From: Pseudomonadota bacterium
Lineage (GTDB): Bacteria > Desulfobacterota > Binatia > UBA1149
Length of the DNA: 34,516 bases
Assembly (NCBI GenBank): GCA_014382245.1
Contig: JACNKC010000021.1
Span: 1-34,516, forward strand
Direction of reading: 5' to 3'
Below the pieces are notes generated by a model. The model worked only from the letters and a program-made list of their open reading frames with translations, had not been told where the DNA came from and made no database searches. This document shows, in pieces, positions 23,465 through 34,182 of the stretch. Made by a program: the position numbers and the translations under genes. Each line of letters begins with the position of its first letter. The stretch's first letter is position 1.

Positions 23465-25381
23465 TCAGGAAGGAGCCGACGGCGGATCGAGGGATGGAGC
23501 CCGCTGTGGCTGGCGAAGCTTGCGCAGCGCCTTGGCCTCGATCTGCCGGATACGCTCGCGCGTTACGGCAAACTTCTGGCCAACTTCCTCGAGGGTGAAG
23601 TCGGTCTTCTCGCCTATGCCGAAGCGCATCCTGAGAATCTGCTCCTCGCGCGGGGTGAGCGTGGCCAGCACCTTGCGGGTCTGCTCTTCGAGGCTCAGCG
23701 CCACGGCGGCTTCAGCCGGTGACACCGACTGGCGATCCTCTACGAAGTCGCCGAGCGAACTCTCCTCGTCATCGCCGATGGGAGTCTCGAGCGAAACCGG
23801 CTCCTTTACGATCTTGAGCACCTTGCGAATCTTGTCCGCAGGCATCTCCATCTGTTCAGCGATTTCGTCCGGCGCCGGCTCACGACCAAGCTGCTGCACG
23901 AGGTAACGCGACGTACGCAGAACCTTGTTGATGGTCTCGATCATGTGCACCGGGATGCGAATGGTTCGCGCCTGGTCGGCGATGGCCCGGCTGACGCTCT
24001 GGCGAATCCACCAGGTCGCGTAAGTCGAGAACTTGTAGCCGCGCTGGTACTCGAACTTGTCCACGGCACGCATAAGTCCGATGTTGCCTTCCTGTATAAG
24101 GTCGAGAAAGCCCAGGCCGCGATTCGTGTAACGCTTGGCTATCGAGACCACCAGTCTCAGGTTAGCCTCGATGAGATCCTTCTTGCCTTTCTGCGAGCGT
24201 TCCTCGCCGCGACGGATGATGCGTACCGCCCAGTCCAGGTCCTCGGTCGACATGCCGATCTCGGCTTCGATGGCGCGCAGGTTACGCCGCGCTTCGCGTA
24301 TGGCCGCTCCCATCTTGATGGCCGCATCGGTGCTCATGCGCAGGTTACCGGTAGCCTTGCGCTTGGCGTTGGTGTCTCCGGACGAGAGCTTGCGGACCAG
24401 TTCGAGGATCTGCTTGCTGTCCCTGCGGGTGCGCTTTCCGGCGCGGATTATCACCCGCTCCTGCTTCCGGGCGAGCTCGCGGGCCTCCTTGAACTTGCCG
24501 ACTATGCGGGTGACGTGGGCCTCGCCCAGCCCCATGTCGATAAGATGGAGCCGAACCTTTTCTCTCGAGGCTTCAAACTTGTTTTCCCTCTCCGTGGGTT
24601 TGCGGCGGGTCTTGACGTTCTTAGCCGGGGCAAAGCGCTTGGGCTTGGTAGCCTGGTAGGTGCTGGCCATGCGCTTGAGCGCGGTGACCTCCTTGAGAAA
24701 CTTCTTGAGCTTCCTCTCGTCTTTCTCAGCGCTGGCCGCCCGGTCTTCCTCTGACTCGTCGGCAAAAATATCCCGTGGCTCGATCTCGCCCGAACGAACA
24801 CGCACGGCGATGCCCACCACGTACTCAATAGATACCGGCAAGGAGTACACGCAGTCGCGAACCTCGTGCAGGCCGGCCTCGATCTCCTTGGCAATGGTTA
24901 CTTCCTGCTCACGCGACAGCAGGGGTACGCTGCCCATCTCCTGCAGGTACATCCGGACCGGGTCGGTGCTGTCGGACGCATAGTCCTTGGAGGCCGTCGC
25001 GCTGGGCTTGGGGCGCGCCTTGGCCGGCTTCGCCGCCACTCGCTTGGGAGGCCCATCCTCCGAATTTTCGCCCAACCACTCTTCGTCGTCGCCATCGAAA
25101 AGCGCGTCGTGGTCAGCGCCGGAGTCGGTGGAATTCGAAGGAGCATCGTCAGTTCCAGCGGCCTTGTTGCTGCCCGAGTAACCCTCCTCGAGTTCTATGT
25201 CGTTCTCGGTCAGCAGGCTGACGGCGGCGTTGAGATCCTCGGGCGTGAAATCGTCCTTGGGCATCACGCGGCTGACTTCGTCGTAGGTCACAAAGCCACG
25301 GTCACGGCCAAGCTCGATGAGCTTGGCGACTACCTTGTCAAGATCATGCCCGCTGGTGTGTTTTGCTGTATTTTTCTGCAT
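23465..25381 (-). CDS. rpoD: Primary RNA polymerase sigma factor RpoD (sigma70)
   Basis: A 638-residue group 1 sigma factor from ATG 25381. Region 1.1 (about 10-70) contains [22 protein letters not shown]. Region 1.2 is [23 protein letters not shown] long non-conserved acidic/basic insert follows. Region 2 spans [20 protein letters not shown] to [20 protein letters not shown], region 3 follows, and region 4 is [21 protein letters not shown] and [19 protein letters not shown]. It directs RNA polymerase to housekeeping promoters. The frame opens 20 codons earlier (TTG) but those residues do not resemble region 1.1. dnaG, often adjacent, is absent. Two palindromes lie in its upstream region. Confidence 0.97.
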
Positions 25382-25632
25382 ACAAGTTGCGGTCAGCGGC
25401 CGGTATGTACTCTTCGTCCAGACACGGAAAAAGTTGTACAACTAGTCAGTACACTACTCGTGTACCCCCGGCGGCGAACGACCAGCCTTCAACGCTACGC
25501 AGGCCCATGTTACGAGTCAAGAAAATGACCCTGCAAACGCTCTCCAAAAACCATAAAACAGGTAAATGCCCCTTTATTACTGGGCTTTTTCGAGCAATAC
25601 CGACTCCAAGACAGATTGCCGGGCCGAGCTTG
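25382..25632. other. Divergent rpoD / sulfatase intergenic region
   Basis: No gene is seen. The region holds two palindromes near rpoD (separate entry) and an AT-richer stretch (25540-25600). A weak hairpin followed by five T's (GCCC 25568-25571, GGGC 25582-25585, T's 25586-25590) points toward the sulfatase gene. No confident promoter was found for either gene. Confidence 0.5.
25432..25465. promoter_or_regulatory. Paired palindromes upstream of rpoD (candidate operators)
   Basis: AGTTGTACAACT (25432-25443) is a perfect 12-bp palindrome. Five bases further, GTACAC-TACTC-GTGTAC (25449-25465) is a perfect 6-bp inverted repeat. Both contain GTAC and lie 51-84 bp before the rpoD start. They may bind a dimeric regulator of rpoD or of the divergent sulfatase gene. 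No known consensus is assigned. Confidence 0.5.
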
Positions 25633-27084
25633 ATGAAAGGGGGGGGGCAAAAAATACCGGCCCCGCTGTCTGTACCGGGATTGGCCGGGGTTCTTCTGAT
25701 TGCTGCTGCCACCTGCCTGGGCTCCTGCACCCCCCACGTGGGTGGTAACGACCAGCCGATGTCGCTGCTGCTCGTGGTCGTTGACACTCTGAGGGCTGAT
25801 CACCTGGGGCCATGGCGCGATGCGGGCGCGGGCGAGACCGTCACGCCCGCGCTGGATCAACTGGCTGACGAGGCGATTGTTTTTGACCGAGCCTTTTCGC
25901 CGGCACCGTTCACCATGCCGGCCATGGCGGCCACCATGACAGGACGCTGGCCCGACCGGGTGGGCGTGGTCAACCACGATCGACTTACCACCCTGCCCGG
26001 CAATTACCCGCTACTCTCCCAGCTTGCGCTCGAGGCCGGCTACCTAACCGCTGCCGTGGTGACCAACCCATGGCTGGCCCGGCGCAAAAGCGGCTTCGGC
26101 CGCGGCTTTGAAGACTGGTACGACGGCGAGGGTGCCGGCTCACACCCAAGGCGCGGCGCGGCCGCGGTTACCCGGCAAGCCGAGGAGTGGCTGAACAAAA
26201 ACAGCTCCAAGCCTTTTCTGCTGTGGACCCATTACATGGACACGCACATGCCCTACCGTCCCGATCCTGCCTGCAAGCCCAGGCCGGGCTCTTTGCAGCG
26301 CAGCAGCAAGGTTATCAGCGACTTCGTGGAAGGCCGGCTGCAGCCGCAGGAAATATATTTCGGAGTGCGGGGCTACGCAGAAAGCGACCTCGAGGCGACC
26401 CGCCTTATATACGACGACGCGCTTTACTGCGTGGACCAGCAGTTGGGGCGACTGCTCGCCACGCTGCAGGAGCTCGAAATTGCCGACAGCACGGTGGTAG
26501 TCTTCATGGCCGACCACGGCGAGAGCCTGGGTGATCACGGGCTCTATTTTGCCCACGATTTCACCCTCTACGAGGAGCTGCTGCACGTTCCGATGATGAT
26601 GCGGGTGCCGGGTCTTACGCCCGGCCGTCGGCCCGACCCGGTGTCGCTGGTCGATGTTCTGCCGACCCTCTGCGCGCTGATGGAGCTCGATTGCCCGCAG
26701 CAGATGGACGGTCAGGACCTTTTAGGCCAGGCCCCGACGAGCGACCGGGTGCTTTTTGCGGCCGGGCCACCGGCGCGCGAACGGTACTCGATGAACCCTC
26801 GGCAGCCCGTAGCTGGCCTGGCTGGACGCTGGACCGCGGCCACGCGCTCGTCTCTCAAGCTCATACACCTGCCCTGGCCCGGGGGTGCCCGCATGGAGCT
26901 GTACGACCTGGAGCGCGACCCCATGGAAAAAGAGAACCTCTTCGGACAGGTCGACAGCTCGCTGCTGCAGGAGCAGCTGCGCAACTGGCGACGGCAAGGT
27001 GACCAGCAGAGGCCAGAGGCGGCGCAGTCCCCCCTGGGGCCCAACCGCCTGCGGCAGCTGCGCGAACTCGGCTACCTGCGCTGA
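25633..27084 (+). CDS. Sulfatase-superfamily lipoprotein
   Basis: A 483-residue alkaline phosphatase-superfamily hydrolase. The signal (PGLAGVLLIAAATCLGSC) has a lipobox LGSC with Cys32, so it is probably membrane-anchored outside the cytoplasm. Metal motifs include LLLVVVDTLRADHLGPW (Asp51) and VVVFMADHGESLGDHG (Asp, His). The nucleophile region reads SPAPFTMPAMAATMTGRWP: Thr94 sits where sulfatases carry the formylglycine Cys or Ser, so this may be a Thr-type phosphohydrolase or phosphotransferase rather than a true sulfatase. The C-terminus MELYDLERDPMEKENLFG is typical of sulfatase family members. ATG 25633 gives a proper lipoprotein signal; the frame is open about 90 codons upstream. A run of nine G follows codon 2. 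Confidence 0.88.
   Translation: MKGGGQKIPAPLSVPGLAGVLLIAAATCLGSCTPHVGGNDQPMSLLLVVVDTLRADHLGPWRDAGAGETVTPALDQLADEAIVFDRAFSPAPFTMPAMAATMTGRWPDRVGVVNHDRLTTLPGNYPLLSQLALEAGYLTAAVVTNPWLARRKSGFGRGFEDWYDGEGAGSHPRRGAAAVTRQAEEWLNKNSSKPFLLWTHYMDTHMPYRPDPACKPRPGSLQRSSKVISDFVEGRLQPQEIYFGVRGYAESDLEATRLIYDDALYCVDQQLGRLLATLQELEIADSTVVVFMADHGESLGDHGLYFAHDFTLYEELLHVPMMMRVPGLTPGRRPDPVSLVDVLPTLCALMELDCPQQMDGQDLLGQAPTSDRVLFAAGPPARERYSMNPRQPVAGLAGRWTAATRSSLKLIHLPWPGGARMELYDLERDPMEKENLFGQVDSSLLQEQLRNWRRQGDQQRPEAAQSPLGPNRLRQLRELGYLR
25639..25647 (+). repeat. Homopolymer G9 at codons 3-5 of the sulfatase-like gene
   Basis: Nine consecutive G bases (Gly-Gly-Gly) lie just after the ATG AAA start, followed by CAAAAAA. 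Gain or loss of one base would shift the frame at the very N-terminus. It could also mark an assembly or sequencing uncertainty. Confidence 0.9.
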
Positions 27085-27094
27085 AGCGAAAGAG

Positions 27095-27880
27095 TCAGAA
27101 GCGCTCTACTACTTCGCGATACTGCTGACCCTTCCAGGCCAGCACCAGCCCCTCGCGTTCGATGCGCACGACCCTGAGACCGTTGACGATGTCGTTCTCG
27201 CGCACCATCGCCATGCCCCCGCCGGTGAGCCTGAGCGAGGCCAGGCGTTCCTCGGGACCACGCGCCCACTGTATGAATATGACTCCCAGGAAAGGAGCAT
27301 CCATGGGGCGGCCGTCGAGTATCTCCTCTTCTCGTGGCGCCGGAACAACCGGTGTCGGCCTGGGCGGTACGGGGCTGGGCGGCGCTGGCTTGGCGGCGGC
27401 AACTTTCGGAGCAGCAGCTTTCGGAGCAGCAGCTTTCGGCGGCGTGGGGCTGGGCACTGCCGGCCTGGGCGCTGCCGGCCTGGGCACTGCCGGCCTGGGC
27501 GCTGCCAGCCTGGGCGCTTCCGGCTTGGGCGCTGCAGGCCTGGGCGCTGCCGGCCTGGGCGCTGCCGGCTTGGCGGCGGCGACTTTCGGAGCAGCAGCTT
27601 TCGGCAGCGCGACAGCCTCCGCTCCCGTGGAAGACAGCACCGGGGCAGGCTCCACCGGAGCGGACACGACCTGGACTGGCTCGCTGCCCATCCACGATCG
27701 AACAAAGAGGATCACCGCCAGTGCAGCCACAACCCCCAGCAGCAGTTTACGATTCCCGCCACCCTGCCCGCCGTTCCCCGCTTTGTCGGGCAACTTTCCG
27801 CCCGCAGATAAATCCGAAGGCGCCGCCCCGGGTGATCCCCCTGGACCACCGTCCCGCATGGCGTCGAGTATAGAACTCAA
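27095..27880 (-). CDS. gspB: GspB-type secretion assembly protein
   Basis: A 261-residue protein. It begins MSSILDAMR, like the MSxILDAL start of GspB/ExeB. One membrane anchor (KLLLGVVAALAVILFV, about 45-60) is followed by a Pro/Ala/Lys-rich stretch (about 90-175) built from repeats. A C-terminal T2SB-like domain follows: DAPFLGVIFIQWARGPEERLASLRL, RENDIVNGLRVVRIEREGLVLAWKGQQYREV. GspB partners GspA to move the secretin GspD through the peptidoglycan. The start overlaps the gspA stop by 4 nt (ATGA). The long Pro/Ala rod would span the periplasm. Ends 10 nt from the convergent sulfatase-like gene. Confidence 0.85.
   Translation of the reverse strand: MSSILDAMRDGGPGGSPGAAPSDLSAGGKLPDKAGNGGQGGGNRKLLLGVVAALAVILFVRSWMGSEPVQVVSAPVEPAPVLSSTGAEAVALPKAAAPKVAAAKPAAPRPAAPRPAAPKPEAPRLAAPRPAVPRPAAPRPAVPSPTPPKAAAPKAAAPKVAAAKPAPPSPVPPRPTPVVPAPREEEILDGRPMDAPFLGVIFIQWARGPEERLASLRLTGGGMAMVRENDIVNGLRVVRIEREGLVLAWKGQQYREVVERF
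27385..27604. repeat. Pro/Ala-coding repeat region of gspB
   Basis: A near-identical block of about 38 bp (CTTGGCGGCGGC(A/G)ACTTTCGG...) occurs at 27389-27425 and again at 27569-27604. Between the two lies a degenerate array of GCCTGGGCGCTGCCGGCC-type units encoding APRPA/APKPE. It codes for the extended linker of GspB. Confidence 0.85.
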
Positions 27881-29649
27881 GACAGATCCCCGGCCGAAAG
27901 GGCCGCTCGCATTGCCTCGCCCAGCCCCGGGCGCTTGCGACTGGTGTCAGCGTTGTAGAGCACTACCTGGGTGAGTGGGTCAACCACGCCGTTGGGACTC
28001 AGTCCCGAAGCCGACTGGAAGGCACGCACCGACTCCTTCAGCGCGTCGTCGTATATGCCGTTGACGGCTCCGTCGAAGTGTCCACTCCGGGCCAGCAACG
28101 CCTGCAGCCTCATGACCTCCGGCCCGCCGCTGCCCGAACCGATGCTGCGCACCAGGCTCTCCCTGTCTTTCCAGAGCAAGTGGCCGCGACCGTTCCACGC
28201 CTCTTCAAACGCCGAGCGACCTACCAGCAGTGAACCGCCCAGGTCGAGCAACACGCGCTCCTCGTCCATGCCGCGCAAGAGCACGTAGCGTACCAGGCCG
28301 CCGTTGCCCGGGTCGAGCTCGACAATAAGCGGGAGGTCCACGACCCTGAGCAAGGCGACCGTCATGTCGCCGGAAAGATACCGCAGCCCCCTGTCCTCGG
28401 CCTGCGAGTCGAGGTCCAGCGAGGGGACGCGTGACTCGTCGGAGGTGACCGGGCGGCGCCCCCAGGCTTTGAACAACTCCGACATCGCCGCAACCGCGCC
28501 GTCGAACACCGGCTGTTTGCCCAGCCGTCGTTGAAGAACATCGGCCGACCGGATAACGCCGCGCGAGGCCACCACCGGGGCTACCTGCCCCACTGGGGTC
28601 GCACCCGACGCGGCACGCGCTTCGCTCACCACCGTGGTGCCGGGCATGTCCGGGAGGCTATCGAGCGAGTGCGAATTCCTGGCCACCGGTGCCGCCGGCG
28701 GGCCGGCGGGGCCCGGGTAGTCATCCACCGACCAGACGAGCAGAAAAGCGACGCCGGCAGCGGCCGTAGCCACGCCGGCAGCAACTGAAAGCCGCGCCCC
28801 CCAGCCCATCGGGGGGACTGCTCGCAGCGGAGTCCGGACCTCGTGCAGTTCGGCCCTGGCAGCCACGGTTTCGTCCTGGCCCACGCTGCGACGGCCGCGC
28901 GTCCAAGCCACCAGCAACGAACGGTGGGCGAGTATATTGATCAGCCTCGGTATACCCCCCGAAAAATCATAGAGCAGGTCCATCGCCTGTTCGTCAAAAA
29001 GCGCGGTGGCGTTATTGCCACCGGCAACGTGCAGGCGCTTGGCTATATACTCGCCCAGCTGCTCGCGGTCGAGAGGCTCCAGGTGCCAACGCACCGTGAT
29101 CCTCTGCGCCAGCTGTCGGAGATCGGGTCGCGCGAGCAGGCCACGTAACTCCGGCTGGCCGACCAGCACTATGTGGATAAGCTTTTCGGTCTCGGTCTCG
29201 AGATTGGAAAGCAGGCGAAGTTGTTCGAGGACTACCGGGTCCAGGTTCTGCGCCTCGTCTACTATGATGACAGTGTTGCCGCCGTCGGCTTTCTGGTTGA
29301 TGAGAAACTCGTTGAGCAGCTCGGTGAGTTCCTTCTTGCTCCTGCTGCGCGACGGCAGGCCGAGCTCAGCGTTGATCGTCTGTAACAACTCGACCGGGCT
29401 CAGCACGGGGTTGAAAATATAAGCCCAGGCCAGGTTGCCCGAGTCGCGCAGGTCCCGCATCAGCGCCCTCACCAGCGTGGTCTTGCCCGAACCGACTTCG
29501 CCGGTAACGGCAACGAAGCCGCTGCCCTCGTCGACGCCATAGCGCATGTGTGCGAACGCCTCGGCGTGTTGTTCACCGAAGTAAATAAAGTCCGGATCCG
29601 GGCTGAGCCGGAACGGCAGGTCGCGTAGGGAAAACCAGTCCTTGTACAT
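27877..29649 (-). CDS. gspA: GspA/ExeA-type AAA ATPase with peptidoglycan-binding domain
   Basis: A 590-residue protein from ATG 29649. The cytoplasmic AAA domain has the P-loop GEVGSGKTT (50-58), Walker B VIIVDEAQ (127-134), and GQPELRGLLARPDLRQLAQRI. A single membrane helix (about 284-306) is followed by a periplasmic peptidase-C39-like region (about 400-500, RYLSGDMTVALLRVVDLPLIVELD...). A C-terminal peptidoglycan-binding domain (about 505-567) contains LQALLARSGHFDGAVNGIYDDALKESVRAFQ. With GspB it remodels or threads peptidoglycan to assemble the type II secretin. A GGAGG Shine-Dalgarno sequence lies 8 nt before ATG 29649, which decides the start over an in-frame GTG/ATG upstream. Coupled to gspB. 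Confidence 0.93.
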   Translation of the reverse strand: MYKDWFSLRDLPFRLSPDPDFIYFGEQHAEAFAHMRYGVDEGSGFVAVTGEVGSGKTTLVRALMRDLRDSGNLAWAYIFNPVLSPVELLQTINAELGLPSRSRSKKELTELLNEFLINQKADGGNTVIIVDEAQNLDPVVLEQLRLLSNLETETEKLIHIVLVGQPELRGLLARPDLRQLAQRITVRWHLEPLDREQLGEYIAKRLHVAGGNNATALFDEQAMDLLYDFSGGIPRLINILAHRSLLVAWTRGRRSVGQDETVAARAELHEVRTPLRAVPPMGWGARLSVAAGVATAAAGVAFLLVWSVDDYPGPAGPPAAPVARNSHSLDSLPDMPGTTVVSEARAASGATPVGQVAPVVASRGVIRSADVLQRRLGKQPVFDGAVAAMSELFKAWGRRPVTSDESRVPSLDLDSQAEDRGLRYLSGDMTVALLRVVDLPLIVELDPGNGGLVRYVLLRGMDEERVLLDLGGSLLVGRSAFEEAWNGRGHLLWKDRESLVRSIGSGSGGPEVMRLQALLARSGHFDGAVNGIYDDALKESVRAFQSASGLSPNGVVDPLTQVVLYNADTSRKRPGLGEAMRAALSAGDLS

Positions 29650-29657
29650 GGGCCCGC

Positions 29658-29662
29658 CCTCC
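29658..29662 (-). promoter_or_regulatory. Shine-Dalgarno site of gspA
   Basis: GGAGG on the minus strand, 8 nt before ATG 29649. It is one of the clearest ribosome binding sites in the window and fixes the gspA start. It contrasts with the leaderless genes. Confidence 0.75.
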
Positions 29663-29675
29663 ATCATCCCCAAGC

Positions 29676-29742: not shown

Positions 29743-30933
29743 ATGCCTGCTCGCATTCCGCTAGCCTTTTTTACAGTCTCGCTGGCCAACTTTCTCTCGT
29801 TCTTGAATTTTGCCTTCTTCTTCCTGCTGCCGGTGTGGGTTCTCAAGCAAGGCGGCGGTGAAGAAGCGGCGGGCAGGATCATAGGCGTAGCGGGCCTGGC
29901 GGGCTTGATCGTGCTGCCGGCGGTGGGCTACCTGCTCGACCGGATGGGCAGGCGGCGTTTTCTCATCTTTGGCACGGCGATAGGAGCCCTGACCTCGCTG
30001 GCCTTCATAGGAGTTAATGGCATAGGCTGGCAGGTCTACGCCCTGCGCGCGTTGCAGGGCGTGGCCTTCACCTGCTCGTTTACCGGCGCTCAGACCCTCG
30101 CAGTACTCTTCGCTCCAGCCTCGCGGCGAGCCGAAGTACTGGGTTGGTTCGGCATCTCCACCATACTCACCCACGCCATAAGCCCTGCCCTGGGCGAGGA
30201 AATCGTCCGGCGCTTCAGCTTTGACCACATGTTTGCCTGCGGTGCCGTGGTGGGCGTGGCCGCCTTCCTGGTCAGCTGCCTGCTGCCGCGCCCACCCGAG
30301 CTGCACGCCCACCCCGACGACACGCCGGCCGACAGGGGGATGGCACGCCGGGCGGTGGTCGCCGCCTGCCTGGCCATGCTCTGCTATGGCTTTGGATTTG
30401 GCAGCGTACAGACCTTCGTGCCGGCCATGATCACCAGGCTCGACCTCGGTCGCGTCGGCGTCTTCTTTACCTGCTGGAGTATAGCGGCCGTGGCCACGCG
30501 GATATTCCTCGGACGCGCGTCTGACCGCTTCGGCCGCCGGGCAGTGCTGGTACCGGCCATGGCGACCATGAGCCTGGCCGTGGCCATGCTCGCCTTTGCC
30601 CACGACCTCCCCATGGTGCTGGCTGCCGGCGTCGTGTTCGGCCTGGCCCAGGGCCTGCTCTACCCGACCATGAACGCACTGGTCGTGGATTGGAGCCATC
30701 CCGAGAACATAGGCCGCACCCAGTCACTGTTCAGCGGGTCGTACAGCCTGGGAATATCGGCCTGCTCGTTCCTCTTCGGAACCATAGTCGAAAACCATGG
30801 TTACGCCGCCATGTACGTGGCGTCGCTGGCCGTTACCAGCATAGGCCTGCTGTTTTTCGTCCTCAGGGGGCCGTCTGACCGCGCCCCGGCCTGGCCGGGA
30901 GCTCAGGCCGATATTTCGTCCGAAGAGAAGTAG
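29743..30933 (+). CDS. Major facilitator superfamily transporter
   Basis: A 396-residue inner-membrane protein with about 12 hydrophobic segments in two halves joined by a hydrophilic loop (RPPELHAHPDDTPADRGMARR). The MFS A-like motifs are GYLLDRMGRRRFLIFG after helix 2 and GRASDRFGRRAVLVPA in the second half. YALRALQGVAFTC is typical of helix 4. It probably exports or imports a small molecule by proton coupling; the substrate cannot be told from sequence. Its last 31 nt overlap the 3' end of the convergent HtrA-like gene. No pathway partner is adjacent. Confidence 0.9.
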   Translation: MPARIPLAFFTVSLANFLSFLNFAFFFLLPVWVLKQGGGEEAAGRIIGVAGLAGLIVLPAVGYLLDRMGRRRFLIFGTAIGALTSLAFIGVNGIGWQVYALRALQGVAFTCSFTGAQTLAVLFAPASRRAEVLGWFGISTILTHAISPALGEEIVRRFSFDHMFACGAVVGVAAFLVSCLLPRPPELHAHPDDTPADRGMARRAVVAACLAMLCYGFGFGSVQTFVPAMITRLDLGRVGVFFTCWSIAAVATRIFLGRASDRFGRRAVLVPAMATMSLAVAMLAFAHDLPMVLAAGVVFGLAQGLLYPTMNALVVDWSHPENIGRTQSLFSGSYSLGISACSFLFGTIVENHGYAAMYVASLAVTSIGLLFFVLRGPSDRAPAWPGAQADISSEEK

Positions 30934-31817
30934 TCCTCGGCGTCACCGGTAACCACCGGCAGGTCGAGTATTTCGTCCTCTCGCTGCACGCGCAGGCGGA
31001 CGGTGTCACCCGGCTTGTGCATCCACAACAGGTGGTAGAGATCCGCGCGGTCCTCGAGCTCGGTGTCGTTAAGCGCGAGCATCACGTCGCCGGCGTGCAG
31101 CCCCGCGCGCTCACCCGGGCTCTCGGGCATTATGCCCGCCAATACCGTCTGCCCGGGCAGCGAGTAGCAGAACATTCCTATCCAGGCCCGCGCCGGGCGC
31201 GAGACCCTTCGCCCGCTGGCCAGCAACTCCTCGCTGTGGTCGTAAAAAAGCTCGGCCGGAATCGCCAACGACTGCCTGCCGACTATGCCCAGGTTGAGCG
31301 AGACAATGCCCAGCAGCTCGCCCCTGCTGTTGGCCAGCGCGCCACCACCCTGCCCCGGGCTGGCCACCGACAGGCTGAGCGCTCTTTCGAGGCGGTACTC
31401 CCAGTAGGCATCAAAGGGCTCCGCCGAGGTAACCACGCCACTGTCCGTGCGTCTTTCCATGCCCTCGGTGGCGGCCACTATAAAAACGTCGCCGCCAGGA
31501 CCAATGGTGTTTGAATCGCCGGGCGCTATGGCAGGAACAAACTGGTCGATGTCGACCACGGCCAGCCCGCTGCCGTAGTCGTGGGCAACAACCCGCCCTT
31601 CTACGCTGGAGCCCTCGAGGTCCGTCACCTGTACGCTGTCGGCACCAACTACCACGTAGTTGGGAACCAGCACGAGGCCGGCCTCGTCAACGACCGTGCC
31701 ACTGCCCGAGCGCTTGAGCCCCAGCACCGCCACCGTGGGATGCCCCGCGGACACATTGACGTCGACGGCAACCGTACAACGGGCCACCGAGTGCAGAAGT
31801 TCCAGCGGTGCCTCCAC
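30903..31817 (-). CDS. HtrA-like protein with inactive protease domain plus PDZ domain
   Basis: A 304-residue protein starting at GTG. Residues about 10-200 follow the HtrA/DegP chymotrypsin fold, but each catalytic residue is replaced. The His region reads GSGTVVDEAGLVLVPNYVVVGA (Tyr54 for His). The Asp region reads HDYGSGLAVVDI (Gly84 for Asp). The Ser region reads SPGQGGGALANSRGELLG (Gly157 for Ser). A PDZ domain follows (about 210-285, PGERAGLHAGDVMLALNDTELEDRADLYHLL). There is no signal peptide or membrane anchor, so it is probably cytoplasmic. Likely a binding or scaffold pseudoenzyme; peptide capture by PDZ is inference. Divergently transcribed from pabB through back-to-back promoters. 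Confidence 0.85.
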   Translation of the reverse strand: MEAPLELLHSVARCTVAVDVNVSAGHPTVAVLGLKRSGSGTVVDEAGLVLVPNYVVVGADSVQVTDLEGSSVEGRVVAHDYGSGLAVVDIDQFVPAIAPGDSNTIGPGGDVFIVAATEGMERRTDSGVVTSAEPFDAYWEYRLERALSLSVASPGQGGGALANSRGELLGIVSLNLGIVGRQSLAIPAELFYDHSEELLASGRRVSRPARAWIGMFCYSLPGQTVLAGIMPESPGERAGLHAGDVMLALNDTELEDRADLYHLLWMHKPGDTVRLRVQREDEILDLPVVTGDAEDYFSSDEISA

Positions 31818-31823
31818 GAGAGG

Positions 31824-31852
31824 AACCTATTCCCGTGCTGGCGGCGCAGCAA
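31824..31852 (-). promoter_or_regulatory. Sigma70-like promoter of the HtrA-like gene
   Basis: On the minus strand, TTGCTG (31852-31847), 17 nt, TAGGTT (31829-31824). It ends 6 nt before the GTG at 31817, implying a leaderless transcript. Confidence 0.55.
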
Positions 31853-31858
31853 GTCCGC

Positions 31859-31887
31859 TTGACCACACCGGGATCCGCACCTAACAG
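31859..31887 (+). promoter_or_regulatory. Sigma70-like promoter of pabB-pabC
   Basis: TTGACC (31859-31864), 17 nt, TAACAG (31882-31887), ending 7 nt before the GTG at 31895. Its -35 is only 6 bp from the -35 of the divergent HtrA-like promoter. Confidence 0.55.
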
Positions 31888-31894
31888 GTAGAGG

Positions 31895-33274
31895 GTGACC
31901 CGAACCCGTGCAGGACAGGCGGCGCAGGCCCCCAAGTCGCTGCTGTCATACAACGCGAGCAAGCCCTGGGCCTTCATGCTCGACCGGGCGGGGCCGGGCT
32001 GCGGAGGGCTGGCCTCCTGGGCCGGTTCGCGGCCAGCGTCGCTGTTGCTCGTAGAGCCGTCGGGGCAGTCGCGGCTGTGGAGCGAAGGCACATGGACCAG
32101 CCCCGACCTCGGGCCGGTTGAATCTATCGCGCGCTTCGTTGAGGCCGGACAGGCCGAGGCCCTGTCCCCGGTGCCTCCGGGTGTGGGCCCACTGCCACGA
32201 ACGGTTGGCTTCATAGCTTACGAGCTGGGCGCTTTCATAGAGAAACGCATGCCCAGGGCTGCGCGGCCGTCGAAGCAACCGCTTGCCGTGTTGTGCACCT
32301 ACGACCGGGTGCAGGGCTGGGACCGAGCGAGCGGTAGAAGTTTCAAACTGGATTTCAGCCGGCGGCTGACCAACGCCTGCCCACCTCCCCTGCCCGTGCT
32401 CGACAGCGAAACACGCGACGAGGACAACGACCGAAAACTCTACGCCAGCGGGTTTGCGCGCATTGCCAGTGCCATACGCGACGGCGAGATCTACCAGGCC
32501 AACCTGTCGCGCTGCATCGCGGCCCACTACGACGCCGAGCCCTGGCAACTGTACGAGAGCATGCGTCGTCACCAACCCGTGCCGCGCGGGTTCTTCATGG
32601 ACTGCGGCGGTCTGCAGGTGCTGGGCAACTCGCCCGAATGCCTGCTGGCGATAGACGGCGAGCGGATATCTACCTTTCCGATCAAGGGAACCCGCGCGCG
32701 CGCCGCTCAACCCGCCCTCGACGAGGCGGCTGCGGCCGAGTTGCTCGCCGACCCCAAGGAGATGGCCGAGCACCTGATGATTGTTGATCTCGAGCGCAAC
32801 GACCTCGGCCGCGTGTGCGCCACGGGCAGCGTAGAAGTCACCGACTTTGCCGCCCTGCGCAGCTTTGCGACCGTGCACCACCTCGAATCCCAGGTGCGCG
32901 GTCAACTGTGCCCGGGAACGGGGTTGGAAGAAATTCTACGGGCGGTTTTTCCCGGCGGCTCGATAACCGGCGCACCACGAATCCGCGCCGTCGAAATAAT
33001 AGCCGAAGTGGAACAGGAAGAACGGGGCGTGTACACCGGTAGCTGCGGCAGCTTCAACGGCCCGCGTTCGGTGGACCTCAACGTCGCCATACGCACGGCG
33101 GTGGGCTCCTGTGGCCAACTGCGCTATCGCAGCGGCGGTGGCGTGGTTGCCGATTCGACCATGGAAAACGAATACGAAGAAACACGCAGCAAGGCCCGCG
33201 CTTTTCTCGAAGCACTTACACTGCACCCGGGGTCGGCCACCACGGGACCTTCGCGAGCCGGAGCCCGGGTGTGA
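31895..33274 (+). CDS. pabB: Aminodeoxychorismate synthase component I
   Basis: A 459-residue chorismate-binding enzyme that, with an amidotransferase (PabA, not in the window), makes 4-amino-4-deoxychorismate for folate. The C-terminal domain has GEIYQANLSRC, LGNSPECLL, PIKGTRAR (the Lys typical of PabB rather than TrpE), and EMAEHLMIVDLERNDLGRVC. FPGGSITGAPRIRAVEII, YTGSCGSF and DLNVAIRT follow, then VVADSTMENEYEET. The N-terminal part (GFIAYELGAFIEKR) fits the lid region. Starts with GTG; a promoter lies 7 nt upstream. Overlaps pabC by 4 nt (GTGA). Confidence 0.93.
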   Translation: MTRTRAGQAAQAPKSLLSYNASKPWAFMLDRAGPGCGGLASWAGSRPASLLLVEPSGQSRLWSEGTWTSPDLGPVESIARFVEAGQAEALSPVPPGVGPLPRTVGFIAYELGAFIEKRMPRAARPSKQPLAVLCTYDRVQGWDRASGRSFKLDFSRRLTNACPPPLPVLDSETRDEDNDRKLYASGFARIASAIRDGEIYQANLSRCIAAHYDAEPWQLYESMRRHQPVPRGFFMDCGGLQVLGNSPECLLAIDGERISTFPIKGTRARAAQPALDEAAAAELLADPKEMAEHLMIVDLERNDLGRVCATGSVEVTDFAALRSFATVHHLESQVRGQLCPGTGLEEILRAVFPGGSITGAPRIRAVEIIAEVEQEERGVYTGSCGSFNGPRSVDLNVAIRTAVGSCGQLRYRSGGGVVADSTMENEYEETRSKARAFLEALTLHPGSATTGPSRAGARV

Positions 33275-34182
33275 GTAAAAGGCCAGCAAGCAAGGGGCCG
33301 TTCTGTTTTCTCAACGGTCGCTACCCGCCACTTGCCGAGGCCACCATCCCGGCGCTCGACCGAGGCTTCCTCTTCGGGGAGGGGCTGTTCGAAACCTGGC
33401 GCACCTACAGGGGACGACCCTTCGCCGTAAAAGAACACGTCCAGCGCATGAAGCGCTCTGCCCGCATGCTGCAGATCCCCTTCGATCCCGACGAGAACTG
33501 GGAAGGGCGCACGCTGACCCTGGGCCGCAAGAACGGGCTGGCCGACAGTTCCTGCGCCGTGAGACTGACCATCACCGGCGGCACCGGGCCGGTGACCCTG
33601 GTGCCGGGGCCTCGCCGGAAACCAACCCGGCTGATGCTGTTCAGGCCCATGGAGCCGGGCCTGTCCGAGGCCCGCGAGAACGGCGTCGCCGTTCACATGG
33701 TGGACTTCGGCGACGGCGTCAACCCGGCCGTGCGAAACCTCAAGGCGCCTTCAAACTACCTCACTGCCGTGCTCGGCAGAACCGAGGCTCGCAAGCGCAA
33801 CTGCTTTGAGTCTCTGTACCGGCTCGAAGACGGCACCGTGCTCGAGGGCACGACAAGCAACGTGTTCGCGGTGATGGCCGGACAACTGGTCACCACCCCG
33901 GTAGCCGGCGGGGTGCTGCCGGGCATAACCCGCGCGCTGGCGTTACGGCTCGGCCGCAGGATAGCCCCCGTTGTCGAACGCCCGCTCACGGTCAAAGATC
34001 TCGCTGCCGCCGACGAGATTTTTATAACCTCGTCCTCTATCGAGGTGGTGCCCGTCACCCGCGCGGGACGGCAGCGCGTAGGCAACGGCAAAGTGGGAGA
34101 ACTCACCCGCGAGTTGCAGAAACTCTACCGGGCCTACGTGTCACGGGCTATAGGCCTGCCGGTAGACGAGCTCGGCGAATAA
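33271..34182 (+). CDS. pabC: Aminodeoxychorismate lyase (class IV aminotransferase fold)
   Basis: A 303-residue PLP enzyme. Family marks are FLNGRYPPLAEATIPALDRGFLFGEGLFETWRT, KEHVQRMKRSARML, the PLP lysine in RNLKAPSNYLTAVLGR, GTVLEGTTSNVFAV, GGVLPGITRALAL, and EIFITSSSIEVVPV. PabC eliminates pyruvate from aminodeoxychorismate to give p-aminobenzoate. Direct coupling to pabB by a GTGA overlap supports this over branched-chain or D-amino acid aminotransferase, which share the fold. Ends 29 nt from the convergent membrane-protein gene. Confidence 0.88.
   Translation: MSKRPASKGPFCFLNGRYPPLAEATIPALDRGFLFGEGLFETWRTYRGRPFAVKEHVQRMKRSARMLQIPFDPDENWEGRTLTLGRKNGLADSSCAVRLTITGGTGPVTLVPGPRRKPTRLMLFRPMEPGLSEARENGVAVHMVDFGDGVNPAVRNLKAPSNYLTAVLGRTEARKRNCFESLYRLEDGTVLEGTTSNVFAVMAGQLVTTPVAGGVLPGITRALALRLGRRIAPVVERPLTVKDLAAADEIFITSSSIEVVPVTRAGRQRVGNGKVGELTRELQKLYRAYVSRAIGLPVDELGE

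Follow-up and report, generated by a model that had tools for sequence, protein, structure and literature searches.

Does an HtrA-like gene in which all three catalytic residues are replaced still encode a protein with a function, or is it a protease gene in decay? The gene that raises this question lies on the minus strand of the window, as we call the whole stretch of 34,516 nucleotides analysed here, which belongs to a genome of 2.94 Mb. A first-pass annotation had placed Tyr54, Gly84 and Gly157 where HtrA proteases have their catalytic His, Asp and Ser, and had proposed a maintained non-catalytic role for the protein, which we refer to as pseudo-HtrA.

An HtrA fold without the catalytic triad

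The closest named relative of the pseudo-HtrA, with 95% identity over the whole protein, comes from UBA1149 of UBP10 (Candidatus Binatota). The gene and its orthologues form the subfamily that we call type A, and the following features were located in the window copy:

30903..31817, minus strand: pseudo-HtrA gene (type A), GTG start, 304 amino acids, intact frame, with orthologues
31233..31724, minus strand: trypsin-like (chymotrypsin-fold) domain, about residues 32-195 (Pfam Trypsin_2; AlphaFold model matching DegQ/DegP, pLDDT 88 with the alignment described below)
31740..31742, minus strand: His26, invariant in type A only (family alignments)
31656..31658, minus strand: Tyr54 codon, position of the catalytic His (DegP H105); Tyr in 58/58 aligned orthologues
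31566..31568, minus strand: Gly84 codon, position of the catalytic Asp (DegP D135); Gly in 55/58 aligned orthologues, Ser in 3/58
31398..31403, minus strand: Trp139-Glu140 family signature (DegP 193-194), invariant in types A and B and present in 0/18 active HtrAs
31347..31349, minus strand: Gly157 codon, position of the catalytic Ser (DegP S210); Gly in 51/58 aligned orthologues, Ser in 5, Asn in 1, Ala in 1
31296..31298, minus strand: Leu174, family-specific, where active HtrAs have Ala (DegP A227; alignment to DegP and active HtrAs)
30948..31190, minus strand: PDZ domain, about residues 210-290 (Pfam PDZ_2; 41/41 members match)
31176..31184, minus strand: Trp212-x-Gly214 of the PDZ domain, invariant in the family

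Trypsin_2 (47.4 bits) and PDZ_2 (51.8 bits) both score above their curated cut-offs and are the only Pfam domains in the protein, in agreement with the trypsin-like core, PDZ domain and intact frame described by the first-pass annotation. Residues 37-295 align to a DegP-like protease in a phmmer search against solved structures (E 7.6e-23), and a profile search against HtrA/Deg returned an alignment of near full length (E 2.7e-51). With the NCBIfam model of HtrA/Deg (TIGR02037) the protein reaches 103.8 bits, below the cut-off of 416 bits. The AlphaFold model adopts an HtrA fold with DegQ and DegP as its top structural neighbours; its pLDDT of 88.2 was obtained with a 33-row alignment that included active HtrAs from viral contigs and may itself impose the fold, so that the model is not independent proof, and with a 5-sequence alignment the pLDDT was 41.6. 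Pfam, the profile search and the model all return the arrangement of MEROPS family S1C, a trypsin-like fold followed by a PDZ domain.

When the protein was aligned directly to E. coli DegP (annotated record L153), H105, D135 and S210 fell on Tyr54, Gly84 and Gly157. The alignments to DegP/DegQ structures place the replacements at the same residues, exactly as first annotated, and the His-Asp-Ser triad of S1C HtrA/Deg is absent from the pseudo-HtrA in both comparisons. The structure, profile and DegP alignments also rule out that the catalytic residues are placed elsewhere in the sequence. Two paralogues with intact His, Asp and Ser (L001 and L002) are encoded in the same genome. At its 3' end the pseudo-HtrA gene overlaps that of a convergent MFS transporter gene by 31 bp (30903-30933).

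Conservation and selection in the Binatia

Full-length type A orthologues, 35-95% identical to the window copy, are found in 56 of 58 Binatia genomes; G003 (87% complete) and G014 (74% complete) lack one. Among 395 sampled genomes of the phylum, comparably strong matches were confined to Binatia and one other genome, G091. The 58 distinct orthologues have Tyr, Gly and Gly at the three triad sites in 58, 55 and 51 cases, respectively. Because synonymous codons vary at these sites (TAC in 47 and TAT in 11 orthologues at Tyr54, all four Gly codons at Gly84), selection acts there on the amino acid and not on the DNA.

Between the window and two congeners, the dN/dS of the pseudo-HtrA gene is 0.14 and 0.20. 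In the same pairs we obtained 0.22 and 0.22 for pabB, 0.16 and 0.19 for pabC, 0.09 and 0.19 for the MFS transporter gene, and 0.11 and 0.11 for the gspA-like gene, and the pseudo-HtrA gene lies at the level of these four neighbours (range 0.09-0.23). Further pairs gave values between 0.08 and 0.36 for the pseudo-HtrA gene. The selection on it is ordinary purifying selection.

The loss of all three catalytic residues is what a decaying pseudogene or a recent loss of function could look like. However, the substituted residues are conserved throughout the class in intact frames, the dN/dS matches that of neighbouring genes, and a sister subfamily (type B, see below) carries the same substitutions. 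Decay has next to no chance of being the explanation, and we consider it refuted by conservation and purifying selection. That type A is a maintained non-catalytic protein is strongly supported; this part of the first-pass annotation holds, and among the orthologues we encountered no combination of an intact triad with relaxed selection on the window copy. The same annotation had also relied on a good promoter, an argument that we could not support, since a consensus scan of positions 30850-32000, which misses other promoter types, returned no sigma-70-type site.

In one Binatia family, f12 (L060-L065), the Ser position is again occupied by Ser or Asn, though His and Asp are absent. We rejected leftover protease activity as an explanation of this Ser, as the other two residues are missing and f12 is nested among Gly-bearing relatives.

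The type B subfamily, the clade tree and localisation

A profile search identified a second subfamily, type B, whose members are 330-360 amino acids long, have the same Tyr and Gly and either Gly or Ala at the three triad sites, and share the motif EF-x-GYWEY. Type B occurs in two families of Binatia (f7 and f14) and, outside the class, in f23, f34 and f105; in all five the N-terminus bears a hydrophobic segment typical of signal peptides. Our search of other phyla covered plasmid and phage records, with a scan of genome contigs that reaches close relatives, and it found type B on plasmids of Rhizobium, Neorhizobium, Pararhizobium, Phyllobacterium and Azospirillum. These plasmid copies are annotated as 'S1C family serine protease' or 'signal protein PDZ', and the hydrophobic N-terminal segment is absent from the four rhizobial and Azospirillum copies that we read. 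On viral contigs, neither the family profile nor one active HtrA used as query gave a match.

The maximum-likelihood tree separates type A (branch support 99/97), type B (100/100) and active HtrAs (100/100). The grouping of types A and B with a further protein, L130, against the active HtrAs is supported at 100/100 and persists in a tree built without the triad and signature columns. The window protein has the residues that mark this clade, namely Tyr at the His site, Gly at the Asp site, Trp-Glu in the L3 region and Leu174. L130 is encoded by a minus-strand reading frame of genome G091 (C186:4000-8000), which also carries a type A copy (L131). It retains His and Ser, combines Gly for Asp with the Trp-Glu signature, and has a signal-peptide-like segment at its N-terminus. 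When all columns are used L130 is drawn towards the active HtrAs (98/91); leaving out the triad and signature positions joins it to type B (92/82), and types A and B as one clade are then not rejected (p 0.40). This single sequence appears to sit near the base of the clade, in a position that varies with the columns used; it looks transitional, as a possible INTERMEDIATE, and we treat it as a lead only. As such, L130 may preserve an intermediate step in the loss of catalysis. It suggests an order in which Asp was lost and Trp-Glu gained first and His and Ser were lost later, with the loss of export falling in type A and in rhizobial type B.

Upstream of the pseudo-HtrA start, an in-frame stop leaves room for just three extra codons, and no signal peptide is present. 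Nor did we find a hydrophobic stretch like that of type B in the first 35 residues of the type A family. The start position is identical in 17 of 17 loci inspected, the start codon being ATG or GTG and the second residue Asn, Asp or Glu. The cytoplasmic location put forward in the first-pass annotation is supported by the absence of signal peptides across the family; from this we infer that type A probably resides in the cytoplasm in vivo, with non-classical localisation possible.

This location bears on whether the pseudo-HtrA could be a regulatory subunit of an active HtrA, comparable to MamO, which is required for MamE-dependent proteolysis (PMC4794232). The genome does encode active HtrAs that might serve as partners, but HtrA proteases are normally exported and would not meet a type A protein devoid of a signal peptide, and no active HtrA is encoded alongside the gene. 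We regard such a role as very unlikely.

Among the HtrA loci of viral contigs (L154-L233), profile alignment assigned Tyr-Asp-Ser to 2 distinct proteins and His-Asp-Ser to the 58 others.

Signature residues, possible function and gene neighbourhood

Residues that are conserved to 93% or more across types A and B and differ from those of 18 active HtrAs include Gly33, Arg36, Tyr54, Trp139, Glu140, Leu174 and Tyr261; at Gly33 and Arg36 most active HtrAs are gapped. Trp139-Glu140 maps around what we take to be the L3 sensor loop, Leu174 presumably in the L2/S1 loop region, and Trp212-x-Gly214 at what we assume to be the carboxylate-binding-loop position of HtrA PDZ domains. In DegS, loop L3 (residues 176-189) relays the signal of the PDZ ligand to the active site (PMC11642142). 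The pseudo-HtrA has thus kept the parts for ligand recognition and relay, with the cutting part replaced by a fixed set of residues. PDZ-mediated scaffolding, as suggested by the first-pass annotation, is plausible given the invariant PDZ domain and W-x-G motif. Nevertheless, the PDZ domain by itself probably does not account for everything, because the most distinctive constraint on the family (Tyr54, Trp139-Glu140 and Leu174) sits in the trypsin-like half.

A rebuilt cleft could also be the active site of an enzyme with new chemistry, made of Tyr54, Trp139-Glu140 and perhaps His26 and Arg36. Tyr54, Glu140 and Leu174 are invariant throughout type A and align to the former active site or its surroundings, and His26 is invariant in type A as well. 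Yet His26 is not kept in type B, where Tyr54, Trp139 and Glu140 are, and the genomic context suggests no substrate; we find this possibility unlikely.

The explanation that we favour as probable is that the pseudo-HtrA is a maintained non-proteolytic protein of the cytoplasm that binds peptides or clients and belongs to an old clade derived from HtrA. This clade probably descends from an exported HtrA-type protease and has lost catalysis; type A would additionally have lost the export signal and come to lie in the cytoplasm. There it may act as an oligomeric binding protein that does not cut, with the PDZ domain recognising C-terminal or exposed peptides of clients, and with the old cleft, rebuilt by Tyr for His, Trp-Glu in L3 and Leu in L2/S1, offering a second, fixed surface for binding or sensing. 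Such a protein could hold clients or serve as an adaptor. Proteolytically dead HtrA variants, DegP S210A among them, still guard against aggregation in E. coli and other organisms (PMC11642142).

Compared with known HtrA/Deg proteins (DegP, DegQ, DegS and MucD; MEROPS S1C), which are its closest structural neighbours, the pseudo-HtrA has the same trypsin-like and PDZ domains but lacks the catalytic His, Asp and Ser as well as a signal peptide, and is unique in its Trp139-Glu140 in the L3 region. MamO, from magnetotactic bacteria, is likewise derived from HtrA and has lost protease activity while keeping a function; unlike the pseudo-HtrA, it is a magnetosome protein with a TauE-like transporter domain and binds metal via H148 and H263 (PMC4794232). 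The pseudo-HtrA is short, cytoplasmic as judged from its sequence, and scores 19 bits with the MamO model, against a cut-off of 800 bits. Its origin from an inactive trypsin-like HtrA relative and the invariant His26 of type A would fit a metal-binding pseudo-protease of the MamO kind. This is highly improbable, however, as H148, a metal ligand of MamO, immediately precedes the site of the catalytic Asp, our family has Ser, Thr and other residues and no His at the corresponding position 83, and Pfam detects no TauE domain. PflC of Campylobacter jejuni is a further HtrA relative without the catalytic triad and acts as a structural scaffold; it is periplasmic, belongs to the flagellar medial disk, has two PDZ-like domains and has lost the His loop (PMC12222027), whereas the pseudo-HtrA has one PDZ domain and no signal peptide and retains the loops with their residues replaced. 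Proteolytically inactive Deg proteins have also been reported for two cyanobacterial strains in a review (PMC4877387), and our comparison with them covers this reported inactivity.

Dead HtrAs are thus a known kind, as MamO and PflC illustrate, and those with a known job are few. A 2008 survey listed 42 inactive homologues among 966 prokaryotic serine proteases, and the passages of it available to us do not name a Tyr/Gly/Gly group (PMC2605481). No description of the Tyr/Gly/Gly clade was found in the literature searched, subscription papers aside, and the Binatota genome paper makes no mention of proteases. What we have not found described is a class-wide, cytoplasmic, signature-bearing clade that reaches rhizobia. 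We tentatively consider, with somewhat more doubt than confidence, that it represents an ancient and widespread clade of pseudo-proteases (Binatia, a second class of the phylum and Alphaproteobacteria) that carry serine-protease annotations. Their HtrA active site would have become a new conserved ligand-binding site, and in Binatia and rhizobia at least the protein would have left the periplasm for the cytoplasm, to act as an intracellular adaptor or chaperone of the PDZ type. The conserved dead HtrA also shows that a set of proteins entered in databases as 'S1C family serine protease' are not proteases. With a dead HtrA near-universal in one class and relatives in cultivable Rhizobium, Neorhizobium and Azospirillum, a non-cutting role of HtrA becomes directly testable.

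Upstream of the pseudo-HtrA gene, and divergent from it, lie a pabB-like and a pabC-like gene:

31818..31894, no strand: divergent intergenic region to pabB, 77 bp; divergent pair kept in 8 families
31895..33274, plus strand: pabB-like gene (chorismate-binding; aminodeoxychorismate synthase component I), conserved divergent neighbour
33271..34182, plus strand: pabC-like gene (class IV aminotransferase), downstream of pabB (domain and family matches)

The divergent arrangement with pabB, mostly with pabC behind it, occurs in at least 8 families (f1, f3, f8, f9, f10, f11, f15 and f16), a lower bound as several loci end near the gene, and the gaps between the two genes are mostly 17-199 bp. Other neighbours are found in f5, f7, f12, f14 and most f11 loci, among them a thiamine-diphosphate enzyme, fatty-acid genes with YceD, and pyruvate phosphate dikinase, and the linkage to pabB is therefore old but not obligatory. 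The pairing hints at shared control in many families. Its close spacing could also speak for a regulator of the pabB-pabC operon or a partner in the folate pathway, but given the unlinked loci and the lack of any DNA-binding domain in Pfam searches we hold this to be quite unlikely. Overall, the gene neighbourhood indicates no single pathway.

Further along the window, the minus strand (27095-29673) encodes an ExeA/GspA-like AAA ATPase that has a peptidoglycan-binding domain, and after it a T2SSB/GspB-like protein containing a long Pro-Ala-rich repeat region. Next to them, on the plus strand (25363-27084), lies the gene of a sulfatase-family protein whose C-terminus resembles that of N-sulphoglucosamine sulphohydrolase.
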